In this document: positions 7,026 to 17,209 of the stretch, piece after piece | How the letters are laid out: each line of letters begins with the position of its first letter | Position numbering within the stretch: position 1 is the stretch's first letter | Origin: Comamonadaceae bacterium | Lineage (GTDB): Bacteria; Pseudomonadota; Gammaproteobacteria; Burkholderiales; Burkholderiaceae_C | Reading direction: 5' to 3' | Assembly (NCBI GenBank): GCA_009996515.1 | Contig: JAACZV010000007.1 | Span: 89,490-153,489, forward strand | Length of the DNA stretch: 64,000 nt | Notes under the pieces: model-generated | What the model was told of the DNA's origin: nothing | Database searches by the model: none | What the model saw: the letters and a program-made list of their open reading frames with translations, nothing else | Translations under genes and position numbers: made by a program

Positions 7026-7889
7026 TCAGGCCTGCGCCAGATCGGAGGCGGACGGCGGCACGATGCGCGCGGCCATTTCCTTGCGGAAGCGGTTGAGCTC
7101 CTGCACCGTCGCGAAGCTGCGGTCCATCAGCAGGCTCATGTTGTGCAGGATGCGCTCGACGACCTTGTTCTCCCACACGCTGTCGAACTGGATCTGCGTG
7201 TCCAGCCAGCGCTCCAGCCACTCGGGGTCGGGCAGGCGGCTCTGGATGGTGTCGCGCGGGAACAGCTTGGCGTTCACGTGCAGGTTGGTGGGGTGCAGGG
7301 CCTGGGCCGTGCGGCGGGCGCTGGCCATCAGCACGCCGACCTTGGCGAAGGCGGCACGCGCCTCGTCGCCGAACTTGGCCATGGCGCGCTTCATGTAGCG
7401 CAGGTAGGCGCCGCCATGGCGGGCCTCGTCGCGCGACAGGGTCTCGTAGATGGCCTTGATGACCGGCTCGGTGTGCCATTCGGCGGCGCGGCGGTACCAG
7501 TGGTTCAGGCGGATCTCACCGCAGAAGTGCAGCATCAGCGTCTCCAGCGCCGGGGCCGGGTCGAAGTCGAAGCGCACCTCGTGCAGCTCGGCCTCGGTGG
7601 GCACCAGGTCGGGGCGGAAGCGCTTCAGGTACTCCATCAGCACCAGGCTGTGCTTCTGCTCCTCGAAGAACCAGACCGACATGAAGGCCGAGAAGTCGCT
7701 GTCCTCGCGGTTGTCGCGCAGGAACATCTCGGTGGCGGGCAGGGCCGACCACTCGGTGATGGCGTTCATCTTGATGGTCTGGGCCTGCTCGTCGGTGAGC
7801 TTGGACGCATCGAACTTGTCCCAGGGGATGTCGCTGTCCATGTTCCAGCGCACGGCTTCGAGTTGCTTGAACAGTTCGGGGTAAAGCAT
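7026..7889 (-). CDS. Ferritin-like diiron protein (acyl-ACP-desaturase-like fold)
   Basis: 287 residues, helical, with a complete diiron signature: E46, E77xxH80 (EEQKH), E125 (CGEIRLNHWY) and E155xxH158 (DEARH). Two Glu plus two ExxH motifs is the layout of ferritin-like oxidases, ribonucleotide reductase R2 and stearoyl-ACP desaturases; the length fits the latter two better than bacterioferritin (about 160 residues). It begins 13 bases after the stop of the LitR-type regulator on the same strand, so the two are probably one transcript. In that context a lipid-modifying oxidase/desaturase or an oxidative-stress role is plausible. The reaction is not established. Confidence 0.75.
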   Translation of the reverse strand: MLYPELFKQLEAVRWNMDSDIPWDKFDASKLTDEQAQTIKMNAITEWSALPATEMFLRDNREDSDFSAFMSVWFFEEQKHSLVLMEYLKRFRPDLVPTEAELHEVRFDFDPAPALETLMLHFCGEIRLNHWYRRAAEWHTEPVIKAIYETLSRDEARHGGAYLRYMKRAMAKFGDEARAAFAKVGVLMASARRTAQALHPTNLHVNAKLFPRDTIQSRLPDPEWLERWLDTQIQFDSVWENKVVERILHNMSLLMDRSFATVQELNRFRKEMAARIVPPSASDLAQA

Positions 7890-7902
7890 GGCGGATCCTT
7901 GT

Positions 7903-8874
7903 TTAGACCCGGGATTCTAAAAGTTCGCGCCAGCGTGCCACCTCGGGCCCGATGGCGGCCAGCCCGTCCAGGCAGCGCACCCCTTCGATGGCGCCCGGCG
8001 GGCGCAGCGCCCGGCTGCGGCCGCCGGCCCAGATCTCGATGCCGGCCGGCAGCAGGGCGCGCAGCGCGACCAGCGCGTCCTGCACCGCCCGGCTGGACAG
8101 CTGCACGCTGAAGCTCAGCGCGACGACGTCGGCGCGATGCGCCGCTGCGGCGGCGGCCAGCTGGGCCGGCGGCGTCTGTGCGCCCAGCGACAGGCAGACC
8201 ACCCCCTCCAGCGTCAGCAGGGCCTCGGCCATCAGCAGGCCCAGCACATGGCTCTCGCCAGGCAGCGTCGTCAGCAGCACGCGCGGCGCGGCGCCGGGAG
8301 CCTGCGCCGGCAGGGCCTGGATGGCCTGGCGCAGCGTCAGCTGCAGCGACTCGCTGTAGATGTGCTCCTGGAACACCTGCACCTCGCCGCTCATCCACAG
8401 CTCGCCGATGCGCGTCGTCAGCGGCGCGAAGACCTCGGTCACGGCGCCCGCCAGGCCGCGGCGCAGCACCGCCTGGGACAGGGTGCGGCGCAGGCCGTCC
8501 ACGTCGTGCCGCTGCAGCAAGGCCGTGCAGGCGGCGATCTCGGGCGCCTCGGCCGCGGCCGCGCCCGAGGCCAGCCCCTCGGCCGCCGGCTGCAGCAGCG
8601 CAGTCAGTTCGGCGGCGGACGCGCCGACGATGCGCCCCGGCCGGTGACCGGCCTCCAGCAGGCGCTTGATGAGGCGCAGCTTCTGCAGCTGCTCCGGCGG
8701 ATACAGGCGCTCGCCGGCGGCGTCGCGCCAGGGCGTGGGGAAGCCATAGCGGCGCTCCCAGACGCGCAGCGTCTCCTTCTGGATGCCGGTCTCGCGCTCG
8801 ACGGCGGCGATGCCCATGGCACCCACCGGCGCGCCGCCGGCCTCGCCGCCCCCTGGGAACAAGACATCGCTCAT
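7903..8874 (-). CDS. litR: MerR-family B12-dependent photoreceptor regulator, LitR/CarH type
   Basis: 323 residues. The N-terminal MerR winged helix (about 20-90: MGIAAVERETGIQKETLRVWERRYGFPTPWR, then RLYPPEQLQKLRLIKRLL) is followed by a helical B12-cap domain and a Rossmann-type cobalamin domain. Two diagnostic motifs are present: Wx9EH (W160, E170, H171), which marks adenosylcobalamin photoreceptors of the CarH/LitR class, and ExHxxG (E207, H209), whose His is the lower axial cobalt ligand. Family members are tetrameric dark repressors that fall apart in light. It diverges from an eight-gene lipid-type operon, with palindromic sites between, and is followed by the diiron gene. The symbol is by family, not by orthology test. 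Confidence 0.88.
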   Translation of the reverse strand: MSDVLFPGGGEAGGAPVGAMGIAAVERETGIQKETLRVWERRYGFPTPWRDAAGERLYPPEQLQKLRLIKRLLEAGHRPGRIVGASAAELTALLQPAAEGLASGAAAAEAPEIAACTALLQRHDVDGLRRTLSQAVLRRGLAGAVTEVFAPLTTRIGELWMSGEVQVFQEHIYSESLQLTLRQAIQALPAQAPGAAPRVLLTTLPGESHVLGLLMAEALLTLEGVVCLSLGAQTPPAQLAAAAAAHRADVVALSFSVQLSSRAVQDALVALRALLPAGIEIWAGGRSRALRPPGAIEGVRCLDGLAAIGPEVARWRELLESRV

Positions 8875-8921
8875 GGCGGCGGCACCGTCAGCAGCAGAAA
8901 TGGACTAGACATGATCTTGAA

Positions 8922-9026
8922 TTTGTCCTGGACAAAGTTAAGACAGAACGCGGCACATGGCGTAATATCGCTCCAAACAGACAATTTGCACAGGACAAAT
9001 CTTCTACAACAAGCCTCGATTGTCCT
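8922..9026. promoter_or_regulatory. Candidate LitR operator region: 15-bp palindrome plus repeated half-sites
   Basis: A perfect palindrome TTTGTCC-T-GGACAAA lies at 8922-8936. Related half-sites follow: AGACAAT at 8979-8985, GGACAAA at 8993-8999 and TTGTCC at 9020-9025. TTGAAT at 8917-8922 could be a plus-strand -35 box, so the palindrome would fall in the spacer, as is common for MerR-type regulators. The region is distinctly AT-richer than its surroundings and sits in the gap between the divergent regulator and operon. Sites are seen; LitR binding is inferred. Confidence 0.6.
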
Positions 9027-9097
9027 CTCGGATGCATGGCCTTGTGCAAGGCCCCGCAACCGGGACAGGGACGTCGAGACCGCACGGGACACCGGAC

Positions 9098-10723
9098 ATG
9101 GCGACAGCATTCGTCACCCGAACTGGGGACAGCGCCCAGGAACTTCATGCTTCGGGTCGACTCTCGGACTACATAAACGGTGCAAGCCCGAGCCTCTCGC
9201 GGCGCGGGGCGCCACCGACCCCTGCCGAATTCGGGCCGCCTGACCTCTCTGGGTCCAGAGCAGCAATCTCGGAGCCGTTCTCCTCCTCACTCCCTCCCTC
9301 GTTGGCTCCGGGGCGTTTGGCGGCCTCTTTTACAACCCGGTCCCGTGTCGATGCCGACGCGGGGCCGTCCGCATCCGCCCCCGCCGGCCATGCCGGGCCG
9401 CTGCTGGAGCTGCTGCGCCATCGCGGCCACCCGCAAGCGCCTGGCGGCCGCACCGACAGGCGCATCGCCGTGGTCGGCGCCGGCATCGCCGGCCTCTCGG
9501 CCGCCTGGGCACTGAGCGACCGCGCGCACGTCACGCTTTTCGAGGCCGCTCCGCGTGCCGGCGGCCACACGCACACGGTCGACGTGACGCTGGGCGGGGT
9601 GACGCATGGCGTGGACACCGGCTTCCTCGTCTTCAACGAGCGCACCTACCCGCTGCTGATCCAGCTCTTCGAGCAGCTGGGCATACGCACGGCACGCAGC
9701 GACATGAGCTTCTCGGCCCAGGTGCCGGCGGACGACGTCGAATGGAGCGGCAGCAGCCTGGCCACCGTCTTCGCCCAGCGCCGCAACCTGGGGCGCCCGG
9801 CCTTCTGGGGCATGCTGGCCGACCTGCTGCGCTTCAACCGGCTGTGCACGGCGCTGGCGGCGCGCGGCGAGGAGGCGGCGCTGGCCGAGCCCATCGGCGA
9901 CTTCCTGGACCGCCACCGCTTCGGCCCGGCCTTCCGCGACTGGTACCTGCTGCCCATGGTGGCCTGCATCTGGTCCTGCCCCACCGCGCAGATGCTGCAG
10001 TTCCCGGTCCGCACGCTGATCCGCTTCTGCCACAACCACGGGCTGCTGCAGGTCAACGACCGGCCGCAATGGTGGACGGTGGCCGGCGGCGCCCGCCACT
10101 ACGTCGAGGCCCTGCTGCCGGCCATCCACGACGTGCGGCTCGCCACGCCGGTGCAGGCGGTGCGCCGCCTGCCGGGCGGCGGCGTCATGCTGGCCTCGGC
10201 CCGCGGCGAGGAGCGCTTCGACGCCGTCGTCCTCGCCGGCCACAGCGACCAGAGCCTGGCGCTGCTGCCCGAGGCCGGCAGCGCCGAGCGCGAGCTGCTG
10301 GGCGCCATCCGCTACCAGCCCAACGTGGCCGTGCTGCACACCGACGCCAGCCTGCTGCCGCGCCGCCGCCGCGCCTGGGCGGCGTGGAACTACGAAAGCG
10401 GCGGCCGCCACGGCGAGCAGGGCGCCTCGGTGTGTCTGCACTATCTGCTCAACCGCCTGCAGCCCCTGCCCTGGCAGGAGCCGGTCATCGTGTCGCTGAA
10501 CCCGCTGCGCGCCCCCGACCCGGCGCGGGTCGTCGGCCGCTACGACTACGCCCACCCCGTGTTCGACGAGGGCGCCGTGCGCGCCCAGGCGCGGCTGCCC
10601 GCCATCCAGGGCCTGGGCGGCGTCTGGTTCGCCGGCGCCTGGACCCGCTACGGCTTCCACGAGGACGGCCTGCTGTCCGGCCTGACGGCGGCCCGTCAGG
10701 TCGCCGAGGAGGTGCTGTCGTGA
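9098..10723 (+). CDS. NAD/FAD-binding oxidoreductase (amine-oxidase-like, COG2907 type); start uncertain
   Basis: The recognisable protein starts near base 9461 with RIAVVGAGIAGLSAAWAL (GxGxxG flavin motif), then the acidic strand end LFEAAPRAGGHTHTVD, and ends with the flavin-contacting WFAGAWTRYGFHEDGLLSGL. This matches predicted NAD/FAD-binding proteins that sit beside DUF1365 and CFA-type genes. In-frame ATGs occur at 9032 and 9098; either gives an N-terminal extension of 120 or more low-complexity residues with poor codon bias, so the true start may lie later (possibly a TTG or CTG). It is the first gene of the light-island operon, and its stop overlaps the DUF1365 GTG start. Probable role: flavin-dependent oxidation or desaturation of a lipid; not proven. 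Confidence 0.8.
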   Translation: MATAFVTRTGDSAQELHASGRLSDYINGASPSLSRRGAPPTPAEFGPPDLSGSRAAISEPFSSSLPPSLAPGRLAASFTTRSRVDADAGPSASAPAGHAGPLLELLRHRGHPQAPGGRTDRRIAVVGAGIAGLSAAWALSDRAHVTLFEAAPRAGGHTHTVDVTLGGVTHGVDTGFLVFNERTYPLLIQLFEQLGIRTARSDMSFSAQVPADDVEWSGSSLATVFAQRRNLGRPAFWGMLADLLRFNRLCTALAARGEEAALAEPIGDFLDRHRFGPAFRDWYLLPMVACIWSCPTAQMLQFPVRTLIRFCHNHGLLQVNDRPQWWTVAGGARHYVEALLPAIHDVRLATPVQAVRRLPGGGVMLASARGEERFDAVVLAGHSDQSLALLPEAGSAERELLGAIRYQPNVAVLHTDASLLPRRRRAWAAWNYESGGRHGEQGASVCLHYLLNRLQPLPWQEPVIVSLNPLRAPDPARVVGRYDYAHPVFDEGAVRAQARLPAIQGLGGVWFAGAWTRYGFHEDGLLSGLTAARQVAEEVLS

Positions 10724-11469
10724 ACCAGGCCCTGCTGGGCCTGGGCCGGGTCGTCCACCGCCGGCTGCGGCCGCGCGAGCATGCCTTCTCCTACCCCAGC
10801 TATTTCCTCTGGCTGCCGATGCGCGCGCTGCGCGGCCAGCCCTGCCCGGCGCTGAATCGCAACGGCCGCGGATGGCTGAGCTTTCACGACGCCGACCATG
10901 GCGACGGCGGCGCCGACGCGCTGGCCTGGCTGGACGCGCTGCTGGCCGCCGAGGGCGTGGCCGATGCCGACGGCGAGGTGTGGCTGCAGACCTACCCGCG
11001 CGTGCTGGGCCATGTGTTCAAGCCCGTCAGCTTCTGGTTCTGCGAGCGTGCCGACGGCTCGCTCGCGGCTGTCGTCGCGGAGGTCAACAACACCTTCGGC
11101 GAGCGCCACTGCTATCTGCTGCAAGGCCCGGAGCTGGCCTGGGGGCAGGAGCAGGTCGCCAGCAAGGTCTTCCACGTCTCGCCGTTCTGCCGCGTCGAAG
11201 GCCGCTACCGCTTCCGCTTCCAGCGCCGCGGCGACCAGGTCGCCAGTCGCGTGGACCATGACGACGCCAGCGGCCCGTTGCTGCTGACCAGCCTCGCCGG
11301 CCAGCTGCAGCCGCTGACCTCGCGCAGCGCCCGCCGCGCCTTCTTCGCGATGCCGGCGCTGACGCTGATGATCGTCGCCCGCATCCACTGGCAGGCGCTG
11401 ATGCTGGCCGTCAAGCGCGTGCCCTTCTTCTCCAAACCCCAGCCGCCCGAGCGCTTCGTCACCCGCTGA
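10720..11469 (+). CDS. DUF1365 domain-containing protein
   Basis: 249 residues from a GTG that overlaps the previous stop (GTGA). Conserved family blocks are visible: HRRLRPREHAFSYPSYFLWLPM near the start, LGHVFKPVSFWFC, EVNNTFGERHCYLL, and KVFHVSPFCRVEGRYRFRF. No signal peptide is seen; a hydrophobic patch (ALTLMIVARIHWQALMLAV) lies near the C-terminus, so it may associate with membrane. DUF1365 has no firmly assigned reaction, but it almost always accompanies a FAD oxidoreductase and a CFA-type methyltransferase, as here. Six bases separate it from the methyltransferase gene. Confidence 0.9.
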   Translation: MNQALLGLGRVVHRRLRPREHAFSYPSYFLWLPMRALRGQPCPALNRNGRGWLSFHDADHGDGGADALAWLDALLAAEGVADADGEVWLQTYPRVLGHVFKPVSFWFCERADGSLAAVVAEVNNTFGERHCYLLQGPELAWGQEQVASKVFHVSPFCRVEGRYRFRFQRRGDQVASRVDHDDASGPLLLTSLAGQLQPLTSRSARRAFFAMPALTLMIVARIHWQALMLAVKRVPFFSKPQPPERFVTR

Positions 11470-11475
11470 CCCGCC

Positions 11476-12693
11476 ATGCCGACCACCACCACCGCCACCT
11501 CCCTGCCCGGCCTGAGCGTCGAACCGCCCCGCCCCGCGCGCCGCGTGCTGGCGCTGCTGCGCCACCTGCGCCACGGCAGCCTGGACGTGCAGACGCCCGA
11601 GGGCGAGCTGCTGCATTTCGGCAGCCAGCAGCAGCCGCGCGCGGCGCTGCGCATCGCCGACTGGGCCGTCTGCGACGCCGCGCTGAAGTCGGGTGACGTG
11701 GGTTTCGCCGAGAGCTTCGTCGCCGGGCACTGGAGCAGCCCCGACCTCAGCGCACTGCTGACGCTGCTGATCCGCAACCGCACCACGCTGGAAGACCTGT
11801 TCTACGGCGGCTTCTGGGGCGGCCTGCTGCACCGCCTGCGCCACGCGCTCAACCGCAACACGCGCGCCGGCAGCCGCAAGAACATCCAGGCCCACTACGA
11901 CCTGGGCAACGAGTTCTACCGGCTCTGGCTGGACCCGACGATGAACTACTCCAGCGCCTGGTTCGAGCAGGGGCGCGGCGGCGACCTCGTGCAGGCCCAG
12001 CAGGCCAAGATGCGCCGCGCGCTGGCCGAGGCCGGGGTCGCGCCGGGCCAGCGCGTGCTGGAGATAGGCTGCGGCTGGGGCGCCGTCGCCGAGGTGGCGG
12101 CGCGCGACTTCGGCGCTCAGCTGACCGGCGTGACGCTGTCCACCGAGCAGCTCGCCTGGGCCAAGGACCGGCTGGCCCGGGCGGGCCTGAGCGCCGACCT
12201 GCGCCTGCAGGACTACCGCGATATCGCCGACCCGCCCTTCGACGCCATCGTCTCCATCGAGATGTTCGAGGCCGTGGGCCGCGAGTACTGGGACGGCTAT
12301 TTCCGCACCGTGCACGACCGGCTCAAGCCGGGCGGCCGTGCCTGCATCCAGAGCATCACCATCCGCGACGATCTGTTCGACCGCTACCTGCGCTCGACCG
12401 ACTTCATCCAGCAGTACATCTTCCCCGGCGGCCTGCTGCCCAGCCCCAGCCAGTTCCGCGCCCACGCCGAGAAGGCCGGGCTGCGCGTCGTCAACGAGCT
12501 GGCCTTCGGCGCGGACTACGCCGAGACGCTGCGCCGCTGGCGCGAGGCCTTCCTGCACCAGGACGGCCGCGTGCGCGAGCTGGGCTTCGACACCCGCTTC
12601 ATGCGGCTGTGGGAGTTCTACCTGGCCTACTGCGAAGCGGCCTTCGCGGCGGGCAACACCGACGTCATGCAGTTCACGCTGCAGCGCGACTGA
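11476..12693 (+). CDS. Cyclopropane-fatty-acid-synthase-like SAM-dependent methyltransferase
   Basis: 405 residues. CFA family landmarks: AHYDLGNEFYRLWLDPTMNYSSAWF (about 141-163), the SAM site VLEIGCGWG, IVSIEMFEAVG, and YIFPGGLLPS. Against E. coli Cfa, three positions around the catalytic bicarbonate differ as I align them by eye: Cys139 is S160, the MFEHVG block reads MFEAVG (Glu239 kept as E265), and His266 is Q292. The Tyr in GADY is kept. Such changes suggest methyl transfer to an unsaturated acyl chain that may not end in a cyclopropane ring. Third gene of the operon; its stop overlaps the next ATG by one base. Confidence 0.88.
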   Translation: MPTTTTATSLPGLSVEPPRPARRVLALLRHLRHGSLDVQTPEGELLHFGSQQQPRAALRIADWAVCDAALKSGDVGFAESFVAGHWSSPDLSALLTLLIRNRTTLEDLFYGGFWGGLLHRLRHALNRNTRAGSRKNIQAHYDLGNEFYRLWLDPTMNYSSAWFEQGRGGDLVQAQQAKMRRALAEAGVAPGQRVLEIGCGWGAVAEVAARDFGAQLTGVTLSTEQLAWAKDRLARAGLSADLRLQDYRDIADPPFDAIVSIEMFEAVGREYWDGYFRTVHDRLKPGGRACIQSITIRDDLFDRYLRSTDFIQQYIFPGGLLPSPSQFRAHAEKAGLRVVNELAFGADYAETLRRWREAFLHQDGRVRELGFDTRFMRLWEFYLAYCEAAFAAGNTDVMQFTLQRD

Positions 12694-13226
12694 TGCGCCG
12701 CCGCACCGCCCTCGCCGGCCTGGGCCTTGCGCTGCTGCCCGTCGCGCCGCACGCCTGGGCGAGCCCCGAGCTGGCCGGCCTGACGCTGCGCGGCCAGGGG
12801 CGGTTCCGCTACTTCGGGCTGGCCATCTACGACGCGCGGCTGTGGTCGGCCGAGCCGCTGGACGCCAACCGCTGGGCCGAGCAGCCGTTGCTGCTGGAGC
12901 TGCAGTACGCCCGCTCGCTGGTGGGCCGCGAGATCGCCAAGCGCTCGCTGGCCGAGATGCGCCGCCAGGCCGCCATCGGCGATGCGCAGGGCCAGGCCTG
13001 GCTGCAGGCGATGGAGGCCGCCTTTCCCGACGTGAAGGCCGGCGACCGCCTCACCGGCCGCTACGAGCCGGGCGCGGGCGCGCAGTTCTTCTTCAACGGG
13101 CAGCCCCGCCAGCGCATCGCCGATGGGCAGTTCGCGCGGCTGTTCTTCGGCATCTGGCTGAGCCCGCAGACCTCGGAGCCGGCGCTGCGCGAGCAGCTGC
13201 TGGGCGGCCGTGACGGCCAGGGCTGA
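12693..13226 (+). CDS. Chalcone-isomerase-like exported protein
   Basis: 177 residues. It begins with a twin-arginine-like or Sec signal peptide (MRRRTALAGLGLALLPVAPHAWA, cleavage expected after AWA). The mature part (LAGLTLRGQGRFRYFGLAIYDARLWS... then FFGIWLSPQTSEPALREQLLG) matches the bacterial chalcone-isomerase-like family, whose members in plants and bacteria bind fatty acids rather than chalcones. It is therefore likely a periplasmic lipid-binding or lipid-processing partner. The ATG shares one base with the preceding TGA; the end overlaps the MFS gene by 17 bases. Confidence 0.8.
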   Translation: MRRRTALAGLGLALLPVAPHAWASPELAGLTLRGQGRFRYFGLAIYDARLWSAEPLDANRWAEQPLLLELQYARSLVGREIAKRSLAEMRRQAAIGDAQGQAWLQAMEAAFPDVKAGDRLTGRYEPGAGAQFFFNGQPRQRIADGQFARLFFGIWLSPQTSEPALREQLLGGRDGQG

Positions 13227-14448
13227 GCTCGCGCCGCTGGACGGCCTGCGCTACGGTGCGCTGGGGCTGGCGCTCGCCTTCGTGGCCCTGCCGCTGTACG
13301 TGCACCTGCCGCAGCACTACGCGACCCGGTTCGGCGTGCCGCTGGCCAGCCTGGGCGCCCTGCTGCTGGCGGCGCGCGCCCTCGACGCGCTGGCCGACCC
13401 CTGGATAGGCCGGCTGTGCGACCGGGCCCTGGGGCGCCGCCGCCTGCTGTGGCAGCTGCCGCTGGCCGGGCTGCTGCTGGCGGCCGGGTTTGCCGGCCTG
13501 TTCTTCCCGCTGCCGCGCGCGCCCGCCGCGCTGCTGGCCTGGGCCGGCGGGCTGCTGGTGCTGACCTACCTCGCCTACAGCGTGTTGACCGTGCTGCACC
13601 AGGCCTGGGGCGCGAGGCTGGGCGGCGGCGTGGCGCGGCAGAGCCGCGTGGTGGCCTGGCGCGAGGGCTTCGCCCTCGTCGGCGTGGTGACGGCCAGCCT
13701 GCTGCCGTCCACCCTCGGCCTGGGCGCCACGGCGGCCGCGCTGGCGGTCGCGCTGGTGCTGGGCCTGGCCCTGCTGGCCTTCGCGCCCCAACCCGGCGCC
13801 AGCGATGCCGAGCCGGCGCCGCTGGCCCTGGCCTGGCGGGTGGGCGAGTTCCGCCGCCTGCTGGCCGTCTACCTGCTCAACGGCATCGCGGCGGCGGTGC
13901 CGGCCACGCTGCTGCTGTTCTTCATCGACGACCGCCTGCGCCTGCCCCAGGCGCAGGGGCTGTTCCTGGCCAGCTATTTCGCCGCGGCCGTGGTGTCGCT
14001 GCCGCTGTGGCTGCGCATCATCGGGCGGCTGGGCCAGCCGCGCGCCTGGGGCCTGGGCATGGGGCTGGCCATCGCCAGCTTCGCCTGGGCGGCGGCGCTG
14101 GGCGAGGGCGATCAGGGCGGCTTCCTGGCCGTGTGCATCGCCAGCGGCGCGGCCCTGGGCGCGGACCTGGCCGTCCCCGGCGCGCTGCTGGCCGGCGTCA
14201 TCCAGCGCGCCGGCCTGGCCGGCCGGGCCGAGGGAGCGTTCTTCGGCTGGTGGAACGCCGCCACCAAGCTCAATCTCGCGCTCGCCGCCGGCCTGGCGCT
14301 GCCGCTGCTGCAGGGGCTGGGCTATGCGCCCGGCCAGCGCGACCCCCAGGCCCTGCAAGCCCTGACCCTCGCCTACTGCCTGCTGCCCTGCGCCCTCAAG
14401 CTGGCCGCGGCCGGGCTGCTCTACCGCCACTTCATCGCCACGCCATGA
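13210..14448 (+). CDS. MFS transporter, sodium:galactoside-symporter-like
   Basis: 412 residues, about twelve membrane helices, starting at a GTG inside the previous gene. The motif ALDALADPWIGRLCDRALGRRRLLW between helices 2 and 3 is the GPH-type MFS signature, and the middle loop near residue 195 is short. Typical glycoside symporters are 450 or more residues, so this is a slightly compact form. In light/singlet-oxygen islands of other proteobacteria a similar carrier accompanies CFA-like and DUF3833 genes; whether it moves lipids or a small solute is unknown. The stop overlaps the DUF3833 ATG (ATGA). Confidence 0.85.
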   Translation: MTARAELAPLDGLRYGALGLALAFVALPLYVHLPQHYATRFGVPLASLGALLLAARALDALADPWIGRLCDRALGRRRLLWQLPLAGLLLAAGFAGLFFPLPRAPAALLAWAGGLLVLTYLAYSVLTVLHQAWGARLGGGVARQSRVVAWREGFALVGVVTASLLPSTLGLGATAAALAVALVLGLALLAFAPQPGASDAEPAPLALAWRVGEFRRLLAVYLLNGIAAAVPATLLLFFIDDRLRLPQAQGLFLASYFAAAVVSLPLWLRIIGRLGQPRAWGLGMGLAIASFAWAAALGEGDQGGFLAVCIASGAALGADLAVPGALLAGVIQRAGLAGRAEGAFFGWWNAATKLNLALAAGLALPLLQGLGYAPGQRDPQALQALTLAYCLLPCALKLAAAGLLYRHFIATP

Positions 14449-14975
14449 ACCGACGCCTGCTGCTCACCACATCCGCCCTGGCCCTGCTGGCCGGCTGCGC
14501 CAGCGCCCCGGTGCCCGAGGACTACGCCGCCGAGAAGCCGGTGCTGGATCTCAAGACCTATTTCAACGGCCCGCTGACCGCGCATGGGCTGTTCACCGAC
14601 CGCGCGGGCAAGGTCAAGCGCCGCTTCGTCGTGAAGCTGCAGGGCCGCTGGCAGGGCGATGTCGGCACGCTGGAGGAAGACTTCCTCTACAGCGACGGCA
14701 AGACCGAACGCCGGGTCTGGACCATCACGGCGCTGGGCAACGGCCGCTACCGGGGCACCGCCGCCGACGTCATCGGCGAGGCCCAGGGGCTGGCCCGCGG
14801 CAACGCGCTGCGCTGGAGCTACACCTTGCGCCTGCCGGTGGACGACACCACCTATGACGTGCAGTTCGACGACTGGATGTACCTGATGGACGACCGTGTC
14901 ATGCTCAACAAGGCGCGCATGAGCAAGTTCGGCATCGATCTGGGCGAGGTCACCTTGAGTTTCTACAAGCCATGA
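14445..14975 (+). CDS. DUF3833 lipoprotein
   Basis: 176 residues with a lipoprotein signal peptide: MNRRLLLTTSALALLAGCAS, lipobox LAGC with the modified Cys at residue 18. The mature domain is DUF3833-like (FNGPLTAHGLFTDRAGKVKRRF, DFLYSDGKTERRVW, LPVDDTTYDVQFDDWMYLMDDRVMLNKARMSKFG), predicted to form a lipocalin-like barrel. This would place it in the periplasm anchored to a membrane, suited to binding lipid products of the operon. It is linked by ATGA overlaps on both sides. Confidence 0.88.
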   Translation: MNRRLLLTTSALALLAGCASAPVPEDYAAEKPVLDLKTYFNGPLTAHGLFTDRAGKVKRRFVVKLQGRWQGDVGTLEEDFLYSDGKTERRVWTITALGNGRYRGTAADVIGEAQGLARGNALRWSYTLRLPVDDTTYDVQFDDWMYLMDDRVMLNKARMSKFGIDLGEVTLSFYKP

Positions 14976-15730
14976 GCCTGAACCCGCGCTTGCGCGACTG
15001 GCAGGGCCGCACCGCCTGGGTCATCGGCGCGTCCAGCGGCATAGGCCAGGCCACGGCCAGCGCCCTGCATGCGGCGGGCGCGCGCGTCGTCGTGTCGGCG
15101 CGCCAGGCGGCGCTGCTGGACGAGTTCGTGGCGGCCCACCCGGGCAGCCGCGCGCTGCCGCTGGACGTGCTGGACCTGCCGGCCCTGCGCGCCGCGGCGG
15201 CCGAGGTGGGGCCCGTGGACCTGTGCGTCTACTGCGCCGGCTACTACCGGCCCATGGGCGCGGCCGGCTTCGACCTGGCCGAGGCCCGCCGCCATGTCGC
15301 CATCAACTACACCGGCGCCCTGCATCTGCTGGACGCGCTGCTGCCGCAGCTGCTGGCCGCAGGCGGCGGCCACCTGAGCCTGGTGTCCAGCGTGGCCGGC
15401 TACCGCGGCCTGCCTCGGGCGCTGGCCTACGGCCCGGCCAAGGCCGCGCTGACCCACCTGGCCGAGGCGCTCTACCTGGACCTGCACCCGCGCGGCATCG
15501 GCGTGTCCGTGGTCCACCCCGGTTTCGTGGCGACGCCCATGACGGCGCAGAACGACTTCCACATGCCGGCCGAGATCGGCCCCGACGAGGCGGCGCGGGC
15601 CATGCTGGCCGGCTGGGCCGCCGGCGAGTTCGAGATCCACTTCCCCAAGCGCTTCACGCGCTTCATGAAGCTGCTGCGGCTGCTGCCGTACCGGCTCTAT
15701 TTCCCGCTCGTCGGCAAGGTGAACCGATGA
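14972..15730 (+). CDS. Short-chain dehydrogenase/reductase
   Basis: 252 residues. The cofactor site reads VIGASSGIG (TGxxxGIG-type, about 13-21), the catalytic region has LVSSVAGYRG with the active Ser, then YGPAK with the Tyr-x3-Lys pair. A C-terminal amphipathic stretch (RFTRFMKLLRLLPYRLYFPLVGKV) is hydrophobic and basic and could tether the enzyme to membrane. It probably oxidises or reduces a hydroxyl or carbonyl of a lipid intermediate. Both ends overlap neighbours by four bases. Confidence 0.88.
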   Translation: MSLNPRLRDWQGRTAWVIGASSGIGQATASALHAAGARVVVSARQAALLDEFVAAHPGSRALPLDVLDLPALRAAAAEVGPVDLCVYCAGYYRPMGAAGFDLAEARRHVAINYTGALHLLDALLPQLLAAGGGHLSLVSSVAGYRGLPRALAYGPAKAALTHLAEALYLDLHPRGIGVSVVHPGFVATPMTAQNDFHMPAEIGPDEAARAMLAGWAAGEFEIHFPKRFTRFMKLLRLLPYRLYFPLVGKVNR

Positions 15731-16143
15731 CCCACCCGGACTCGCGCGTGGCCGTGCTCATCGGCCTGTACGAAACCCTGCAACCCGCCAACCTGGACGA
15801 GCTGGCGGCGCGCTATGCGCGCGGCTGCCGCTTCAAGGATCCGTTCAACGAGGTACAGGGCCGGGCGGCGCTGCGGCGCGTCTTCCAGCACATGTTCGAG
15901 ACGGTGAAATCGCCGCGCTTCGTCGTGCGGGATGCCTTCGTGGAGGGCGACCAGTGCTTCCTCAGCTGGGACTTCCACGCCGGCGACCTCGTCATCCGCG
16001 GCGCCAGCCATCTGCGCTTCGACGCCGCCGGCCTGGTGGCCGAGCACCGCGACTACTGGGATGCCGCCGAGGAGCTGTACGAGAAGCTGCCCGTGCTGGG
16101 CGCGCTGATGCGCCTGTTGAAACGCCGTCTGCGCGCGACGTGA
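15727..16143 (+). CDS. NTF2-like (SnoaL/nuclear transport factor 2 fold) protein
   Basis: 138 residues; the sequence VLIGLYETLQPANLDELAARYARGCRFKDPFNEVQGRAALRRVF is a classic NTF2/SnoaL start, with FKDPF and a later HRDYWDAAEELYEKLPVLG. Members of this fold act as small isomerases, hydratases or binding proteins. It is the last gene of the light-island operon, starting in the SDR stop codon. No active-site assignment is safe. A hairpin within a repeat-like element follows. Confidence 0.8.
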   Translation: MTHPDSRVAVLIGLYETLQPANLDELAARYARGCRFKDPFNEVQGRAALRRVFQHMFETVKSPRFVVRDAFVEGDQCFLSWDFHAGDLVIRGASHLRFDAAGLVAEHRDYWDAAEELYEKLPVLGALMRLLKRRLRAT

Positions 16144-16234: not shown

Positions 16235-17209
16235 CTATTTCAACCATCCTTTGCGGCGGAAGTAGATGAAGGGTGCCGCGACGGACAGCAGCATCAGCAC
16301 CAGCGCGAACGGATAGCCCCAGTCAGACTCCAGCTCCGGCATGTGCTTGAAGTTCATGCCGTAGATGGACGCGATCAGCGTCGGCGGCAGCAGCGCCACG
16401 CTGGCCACCGAGAAGATCTTGATGATCTTGTTCTGGTTGATGTTGATGAAGCCCACCGTGGCGTCCATCAGGAAGTTGATCTTGTCGAACAGGAAGGCGG
16501 TGTGCGAGTCCAGCGAGTCGATGTCGCGCAGGATCTGGCGCGACTCCTCGAACTGCTCGGCGTTGAGCATGCGGCTGCGCATCATGAAGCTGACCGCACG
16601 GCGCGTGTCCATCACGTTGCGGCGGATGCGGCCGTTCAAGTCTTCCTCGCGGGCGATCGACCCCAGCACCTCGCCGGCCTCGGCGTCGGTCACGTCGCTC
16701 TTCAACACGCGGGCACTGACGGCCTCGAGCTTGTCATAGATGCCCTCCAGCACGTCGGCCGAGTACTCGGCGTCGGCGTCGTAGAGCTTGAGCAGCACGT
16801 CCTTGGCGTCCTCGATCAGCGCGGGAATGCGGCGCGCGCGCAGCCGCAGCAGCCGGAACACCGGCAGGTCCTCGTTGTGGATGGAGAACAGGATGTTGTT
16901 GAACAGGATGAAGGCCACGCGCACGTTGCGCGCCTGGCCGTCGTCGTCGATGAGGAAGTCGGAGCGGATGTGCAGCTCGCCGTTGTCTTCCTCGTAGAAG
17001 CGCGCCGACTCCTCCAGGTCCTCGTCGACGATGTCCTCGGGGATGGTCAGGCCGAAGCGGTCGCGTATCCAGCCTTTTTCCTCGGCGCTGGGGCTTTCCA
17101 GGTCCACCCAGACCGGGCGCGACAGGGCCAGATCCTCGGCGGTTTCAATCTCTTGCTGGAACAGGCCGCCCTTCAGGCGCCCGTTGTCCAGCGTGAACAC
17201 ATTCAGCAT
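16235..17209 (-). CDS. corA: Magnesium and cobalt transporter CorA
   Basis: 324 residues with a large soluble N-terminal domain, acidic and helical, and two C-terminal membrane helices (IIKIFSVASVALLPPTLIASIYGMNF and YPFALVLMLLSVAAPFIYF). The YGMNF motif at the end of helix 1 is the ion-selectivity signature of CorA, and the chain ends with the basic RRKGW tail. It forms a pentameric inner-membrane Mg2+ channel. The 407-base region upstream separates it from hpf on the other strand. Confidence 0.96.
   Translation of the reverse strand: MLNVFTLDNGRLKGGLFQQEIETAEDLALSRPVWVDLESPSAEEKGWIRDRFGLTIPEDIVDEDLEESARFYEEDNGELHIRSDFLIDDDGQARNVRVAFILFNNILFSIHNEDLPVFRLLRLRARRIPALIEDAKDVLLKLYDADAEYSADVLEGIYDKLEAVSARVLKSDVTDAEAGEVLGSIAREEDLNGRIRRNVMDTRRAVSFMMRSRMLNAEQFEESRQILRDIDSLDSHTAFLFDKINFLMDATVGFININQNKIIKIFSVASVALLPPTLIASIYGMNFKHMPELESDWGYPFALVLMLLSVAAPFIYFRRKGWLK

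Follow-up and report, generated by a model that had tools for sequence, protein, structure and literature searches.

Organization of the Locus

We describe here a ten-gene locus at positions 7026-16143 of a 64-kb stretch of DNA (the window), which belongs to contig C7 of a Comamonadaceae genome of 4.58 Mb (labelled G000). In this locus a gene for a predicted vitamin B12-dependent photoreceptor, LitR, diverges from eight genes that include candidates for the synthesis of furan fatty acids (FuFA). An initial annotation of this DNA had proposed ten genes, a pair and eight nearly overlapping ones diverging from it, and both the open reading frames and the Pfam domains confirm this inventory. The features are as follows, in window coordinates.

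7026 to 7889, minus strand: diiron protein, ferritin-like, with the fold of stearoyl-acyl carrier protein (ACP) desaturase (Pfam match and fold)
7903 to 8874, minus strand: litR, predicted adenosylcobalamin (AdoCbl)-binding photoreceptor-repressor of the MerR family, class I LitR/CarH (domains, PDB match, alignment)
8922 to 8936, unstranded: predicted LitR operator 1, the perfect palindrome TTTGTCCTGGACAAA, with ACA following at the CarH-type 11-bp step
8985 to 8999, unstranded: predicted LitR operator 2, TTTGCACAGGACAAA, which has 2 mismatches, lies 63 bp from operator 1 and is followed at 11 bp by TnnACA
9461 to 10723, plus strand: ufaD-like FAD desaturase/oxidoreductase (Amino_oxidase and NAD_binding_8; compare the description of UfaD domains in PMC7380195)
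10720 to 11469, plus strand: ufaO-like DUF1365 protein (Pfam DUF1365, E=2e-77; UfaO is described as having DUF1365 in PMC7380195)
11476 to 12693, plus strand: ufaM-like methyltransferase, dependent on S-adenosylmethionine (SAM) and of the cyclopropane fatty acid (CFA) synthase/CMAS type (CMAS domain, CFA synthase matches)
12693 to 13226, plus strand: chalcone-isomerase-like accessory protein (Chalcone_3)
13210 to 14448, plus strand: MFS transporter, accessory (MFS_2)
14445 to 14975, plus strand: DUF3833 accessory protein with a lipobox (LAGC) at its N-terminus (DUF3833)
14972 to 15730, plus strand: short-chain dehydrogenase (SDR), accessory (adh_short)
15727 to 16143, plus strand: NTF2/SnoaL-like accessory protein (SnoaL_2)
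16235 to 17209, minus strand: gene that we take to be corA-like, at the other flank of the island, adjoining the diiron gene at the empty sites described below

The eight plus-strand genes are tightly packed, six of their seven junctions being overlaps of 1 to 17 bp and the remaining one a 6-bp gap, and on the minus strand only 13 bp separate litR from the diiron gene. The start codon of the ufaD-like gene is uncertain (its open reading frame covers 9020-10723, with the conserved part beginning at about 9461). The litR-ufaD gap is AT-rich, with 47% GC at 8880-9030 compared to 71% overall. As the initial annotation had stated, the window lacks a photolyase gene: queries of two photolyase types gave no match anywhere in its 64 kb.

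The Predicted Furan-Fatty-Acid Operon and Its Conservation

In Rhodobacter sphaeroides and Rhodopseudomonas palustris, a SAM methylase (UfaM), an NAD/FAD-binding, phytoene-desaturase-like protein (UfaD) and an O2-dependent DUF1365 protein (UfaO) are reported to produce a methylated furan fatty acid carried by phospholipids; the R. sphaeroides operon has three more genes, which are dispensable for furan synthesis (PMC7380195). On exposure to singlet oxygen the furan disappears, and singlet oxygen kills cells unable to make it (PMC7380195). Enzymes of the UfaD, UfaO and UfaM types lie side by side in the window, a likeness that rests on domains and gene order; the ufaD-like protein matches at the level of its domains, with a weak match to crtI_fam among others. 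The assignment of three of the eight genes to the furan-fatty-acid set is supported by these data, and the context favours UfaM as the identity of the CMAS-type methyltransferase. The earlier suggestion of a full fatty-acid-modifying pathway survives, by domain and gene order, for these three enzyme types; it is not supported for the diiron protein, which it had counted as a component.

Gene occurrence was surveyed in 150 genomes of the order, with a LitR match defined as >150 bits. DUF1365 was found in 64 of them, the diiron protein in 61 (four partial or weak) and LitR in 46, and UfaO and LitR lay within 10 kb of each other in 35 of the 43 genomes holding both. Among 60 hand-picked loci whose neighbourhoods were mapped, 36 contain UfaO, and since 24 of these 36 have the complete set of eight, ordered as in the window, the arrangement is not a matter of chance. 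Genes that we take to encode FolE2, glutathione peroxidase and photolyase often join ufa loci; photolyase domains were confirmed for two proteins of locus L235.

Variant arrangements were also observed. At L052, L077, L092 and L093 the regulator has been swapped: a gene that we presume to be TetR-like replaces LitR in the position divergent from the ufa genes. A second type of ufa cluster, at L079, L085-L088 and L090, includes what we take to be a membrane desaturase, a lipocalin, a DUF1295-like protein and two methyltransferases, and mostly adjoins a more distant LitR-like gene. Finally, in a genome of the same genus (G179; L248:3942-4835) litR stands beside the diiron and corA-like genes without any ufa genes. 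This locus no longer has a good operator, and one stop was reported in the litR match (perhaps only an early end); this litR is possibly decaying after loss of the ufa genes.

The Predicted Photoreceptor

The LitR of the window is composed of a MerR_1 helix-turn-helix, a B12-binding_2 and a B12-binding domain. Its top PDB match is Thermus CarH (5c8d, E=2.1e-28), and it matches the NCBIfam CarH model with E=9.9e-38, a score under the equivalog cut-off (130 of 400 bits). Both AdoCbl light-sensor motifs that had been noticed initially are intact, the lower-ligand histidine included: Wx9EH as W160, E170 and H171, and ExHxxG as E207, H209 and G212. Each motif position is kept in 63 to 65 of 65 aligned LitRs. 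Domains and motifs support the identification of this protein as a class I LitR of the AdoCbl type, for which AdoCbl-dependent DNA binding, released by light, is predicted. A supply of the cofactor is plausible, as contig C6 of the same genome carries a cobalamin riboswitch and, about 7 kb from it, a gene for a CobA/BtuR adenosyltransferase.

The Predicted LitR Operator

The gap between litR and ufaD contains the palindrome TTTGTCC-N-GGACAAA in a perfect copy at 8922-8936 and in a second copy at 8985. Upstream regions of litR were compiled from the window and 51 relatives, and the hexamer GGACAA/TTGTCC is present in 44 of these 52, where resampling of regions leads one to expect 8.9. A 15-bp operator model, with a site threshold of >=14 bits, found sites in 47 of the 52, and in 25 of 30 cases paired sites were 62-65 bp apart. 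At L097 (Roseateles puraquae), whose gene order is that of the window, the sites lie at 8886 and 8949 of the locus. The density of sites was 77 in 19,371 bp of litR-upstream sequence compared to 19 in 376,018 bp of twenty loci having only the diiron gene. Such sites also follow LitR at other genes. They occur in the 600 bp upstream of ufaD in 21 of 50 loci with LitR and in none of 35 without it, and before a glutathione-peroxidase-like gene in 16/17 loci with LitR versus 1/26 without.

The design of CarH-type operators is known to be plastic. The main signal here is an inverted repeat, as opposed to tandem TnnACA direct repeats, with an enrichment of ACA at 11 bp: in 15 of 153 arms the core ACA has a second ACA at a distance of exactly 11 bp, and every other offset is represented at most 4 times. 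Known CarH operators are described as having 11-bp repeats (PMC9304148). We predict that the pair of palindromes between litR and the operon constitutes the LitR operator.

A Wider Predicted Regulon

In the entire 4.58-Mb genome the exact palindrome occurs in two places (0.002 expected by composition), the litR-ufaD gap and C6:192140. The latter site, outside the window, is about 235 bp upstream of a gene for a methyl-accepting chemotaxis protein (MCP, a chemoreceptor), followed by a homologue of photoactive yellow protein (PYP) and by a PAS-GGDEF protein whose gene overlaps pyp by 4 bp (G000:C6:192140-195605; L181:5641-9105). The PYP homologue matches TIGR02373 with E=1.2e-23 (83.5 bits, below the 143-bit equivalog cut-off) as well as PYPs in the PDB, and retains the chromophore cysteine (VAPC). 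It is probable that the same LitR controls this MCP-PYP-diguanylate cyclase operon through its one further perfect site. One light sensor would then possibly be controlling another.

Across 150 genomes of the family the exact palindrome was found at 17 places, spread over 12 genomes of which 11 have LitR, with 4 places for a reversed control. The degenerate motif was found in 55 places in 39 genomes, with 6 for the control; it is present in 35 of 63 genomes with LitR and in 4 of 87 without. Besides the 29 degenerate places that adjoin litR, a recount left 21 non-litR places in LitR-bearing genomes. Six of these 21 precede MCP genes (G000, G202, G206, G211, G163, G255), a raw count that takes no account of how abundant MCP genes are. 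Three of the six MCPs, those in G000, G206 and G255, are orthologous over their full length, with 50-51% identity; the other three are of different types, and the link to PYP is seen only in G000. The three orthologues (L181:5889-7328, L279:4550-6100, L284:3165-4610), all with a LitR-type site upstream, share a conserved His-rich membrane region (HIQL..EFHFGVFV..HH..FDRLQ). Another five of the 21 fall between uvrB-like and iscR-like genes (G161, G049, G170, G263, G179; L234:836, L238:3813, L272:3875, L273:3632, L276:3285), which suggests light control of iron-sulfur (Fe-S) cluster assembly. Single degenerate sites also precede a lipocalin and photolyases.

A Proposed Light-Switched Furan-Lipid Operon

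We propose, with a probability of roughly 0.73, that light switches a furan-fatty-acid operon through LitR, acting as an AdoCbl-dependent repressor. Every regulatory and chemical step of this scheme is a prediction from the observed genes, motifs, candidate operators and their conservation. In the dark, AdoCbl-bound LitR would occupy the two palindromes of the litR-ufaD gap, which lie six helical turns apart, and silence both directions, perhaps by bridging them. In the light, the Co-C bond would break, LitR would let go of the DNA, and ufaD, ufaO and ufaM would be made together with the five accessory genes. UfaM would then methylate an unsaturated acyl chain of a membrane phospholipid, UfaD would add a second double bond, and UfaO would insert an oxygen derived from O2, with a furan ring, a quencher of singlet oxygen, as the product.

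Several points weigh against this proposal. A sigma-70-like promoter was looked for in the litR-ufaD gap and none was found. Of the 50 ufaD genes with LitR in their locus, only 21 are preceded by a site in the upstream 600 bp, a shortfall attributable to other genes that often intervene or to weak sites. Training and scoring of the motif model used the same regions, and its held-out success (24/26 and 21/26) is not fully independent. When up to 2 mismatches are allowed in the window's genome, the reversed control equals the real count (5 and 5), so that sites count as evidence only when exact or nearly so, and the same control still gave the 4 exact and 6 degenerate matches in the 150 genomes. 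The co-occurrence counts are raw and ignore phylogeny, and the likeness to the R. sphaeroides UfaD, UfaO and UfaM was set by domain description, not by direct alignment. Finally, the residue after the motif tryptophan, at the position of His132 in the CarH of Thermus thermophilus (TtCarH), is a methionine in the window's LitR. The H132A mutant of TtCarH is reported to stay largely tetrameric in the light, an earlier report cited there differing (PMC10442372), so that the light switch may work otherwise or weakly here.

A broader reading is tentative, and we would sooner bet against it than for it. It holds that a clade of B12 photoreceptors lacking the upper-ligand histidine grips paired palindromes six turns apart and runs a combined light programme, comprising a furan-lipid membrane, a dedicated chemoreceptor that serves light avoidance or settling (coupled in this genome to PYP and cyclic di-GMP output) and, via iscR, the tuning of Fe-S assembly in related bacteria.

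Alternative Explanations

The best surviving alternative, though an unlikely one, gives the diiron protein a working role in the pathway, as an oxidase resembling acyl-ACP desaturases, co-transcribed with litR and induced by light, that would provide the acyl chain or alter it. The protein does match FA_desaturase_2 (E=2.4e-7, 30.4 bits versus a cut-off of 22.7, with no single stretch passing alone; AurF is the next match, below its cut-off) and has the desaturase fold with E, ExxH, E and ExxH ligands. Its best named matches, at 96-98% identity, are mostly from Roseateles. Its distribution, however, argues for independence. At four empty sites of close relatives without the LitR-ufa island (L096, L098, L102, L106) the gene is retained, as the neighbour of the corA-like gene; 19 of the 61 genomes with the diiron protein lack UfaO; and 27 of 80 close-relative loci, some of which end at contig ends, have no LitR and no UfaO in the surrounding 10 kb or so. 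At L097 it is 96-97% conserved compared to 74% for LitR, and predicted operators are nearly absent from the 600 bp before it (1/47 loci with LitR, 3/74 without). In many of the loci L054-L073 it stands beside an rfaE2-like gene, with LitR and ufa not nearby. For these reasons, and as the published work assigns desaturation to UfaD and oxygenation to UfaO, we do not count it in the pathway. Most likely it is a core gene of separate function that flanks the island, although co-occurrence may indicate some functional tie to LitR and ufa.

It is less probable still that the product is a cyclopropane or branched methylated fatty acid and not a furan. The best PDB and NCBIfam matches of the methyltransferase are indeed CFA synthases, and its family cannot separate UfaM from Cfa. 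Nevertheless, the genome has other CMAS matches (one strong, one weak) elsewhere, and here the UfaO and UfaD types adjoin, the three together giving furan in R. sphaeroides and R. palustris (PMC7380195).

An equally improbable alternative is that LitR responds to the level of B12 or to redox instead of light. In its favour, no histidine is found at the His132 position in any of the 65 aligned LitRs (M25 L19 V9 A7 I3 S1 E1), whereas illumination of the Thermus protein makes His132 the upper ligand of cobalt (PMC10442372). Against it, the equivalents of W131, E141, H142 and H177, named as key AdoCbl-binding residues in CarH, are conserved, and position 132 is described as variable among cobalamin photoreceptors (PMC11796333). 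Furthermore, the genes neighbouring LitR are photoprotective in type. Histidine at this position is said to be present in "many" myxobacterial CarH proteins (PMC9304148). The upper-ligand histidine is hence a common feature of class I LitR/CarH, not a strictly defining one, and is lacking here; given the variation already known, its absence is a puzzle rather than a disproof of light sensing.

That the palindrome belongs to another regulator and lies near litR by chance is very improbable: it does recur in the uvrB-iscR gap of five genomes, but all five have a LitR match, LitR presence predicts the motif, and it is missing from all 35 ufaD-upstream regions without LitR in the locus.

Comparison with Known Systems

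We take RSP1087-1089 of R. sphaeroides to be the counterparts of the SDR, DUF3833 and MFS genes, partly from the lengths of their products. The further proteins of that operon have 402, 186 and 245 amino acids, against 412, 176 and 252 in the window (PMC7380195). The furan genes of R. sphaeroides (RSP1091-1087 and RSP2144) and R. palustris (RPA2571-2569) encode the same UfaD, DUF1365 UfaO and CFA-like UfaM types; the ufaM gene is in the same operon in the window, has adjacent locus tags in R. palustris and lies apart in R. sphaeroides (PMC7380195). Relative to the sets described there, the window adds the chalcone-isomerase-like and NTF2-like genes, and has LitR in place of RpoE-ChrR.

A regulatory parallel is the light-inducible regulon of the class II LitRs PplR/PmlR in Pseudomonas, where a MerR/LitR gene is near SDR, FAD oxidoreductase, ufaM and photolyase genes (PMC9758184). 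Those regulators lack a full B12 domain and use a LOV partner, whereas the B12 domain of the window's LitR is complete, and their operator is TGTACA-N12-TGTACA in contrast to the predicted TTTGTCC-N-GGACAAA (PMC9758184). The earlier expectation that related gene sets are under LitR or RpoE-ChrR control is borne out by these accounts (PMC9758184, PMC7380195). With TtCarH (5c8d) the window protein shares the MerR, four-helix and Rossmann B12 domains and both motifs (PMC10442372, PMC9304148), and its predicted operators keep a trace of the 11-bp ACA repeat (PMC9304148). It differs by the missing His132, by lipid instead of carotenoid genes nearby, and by inverted palindromes paired 63 bp apart in place of three tandem 11-bp direct repeats. 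In Vibrio cholerae (MerR/ChrR) a MerR-type regulator is required for a response to blue light, with a CFA-type synthase gene among the genes that respond; there a photolyase adjoins merR, reactive oxygen species are proposed as the signal, and the relevant part of that account does not state that MerR controls the CFA-type gene (PMC5241685). The order of PYP followed by a GGDEF gene at the C6 site is that of described pyp operons; the C6 operon has in addition a separate MCP gene before pyp and a predicted LitR site, and the table in that source counts MCP only for fusions (PMC12826048).

LitR control of ufaM has been published for Pseudomonas. What is new here is a predicted B12-type LitR over an ufa operon, instead of ChrR or a class II LitR, together with the predicted operator pair, the chemoreceptor, PYP and iscR sites and the missing histidine. 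That histidine's absence calls into question the model, drawn from Thermus, of DNA release by CarH proteins. An easy misreading is also corrected, in that the adjoining diiron "desaturase" is a core gene and not evidently part of the pathway. For the Burkholderiales a concrete candidate LitR operator and regulon can now be named, whose sites suggest that one repressor may set swimming behaviour as well as lipid genes. The locus would join two photoprotection stories that are usually told separately, B12-based light sensing and furan lipids that quench singlet oxygen.

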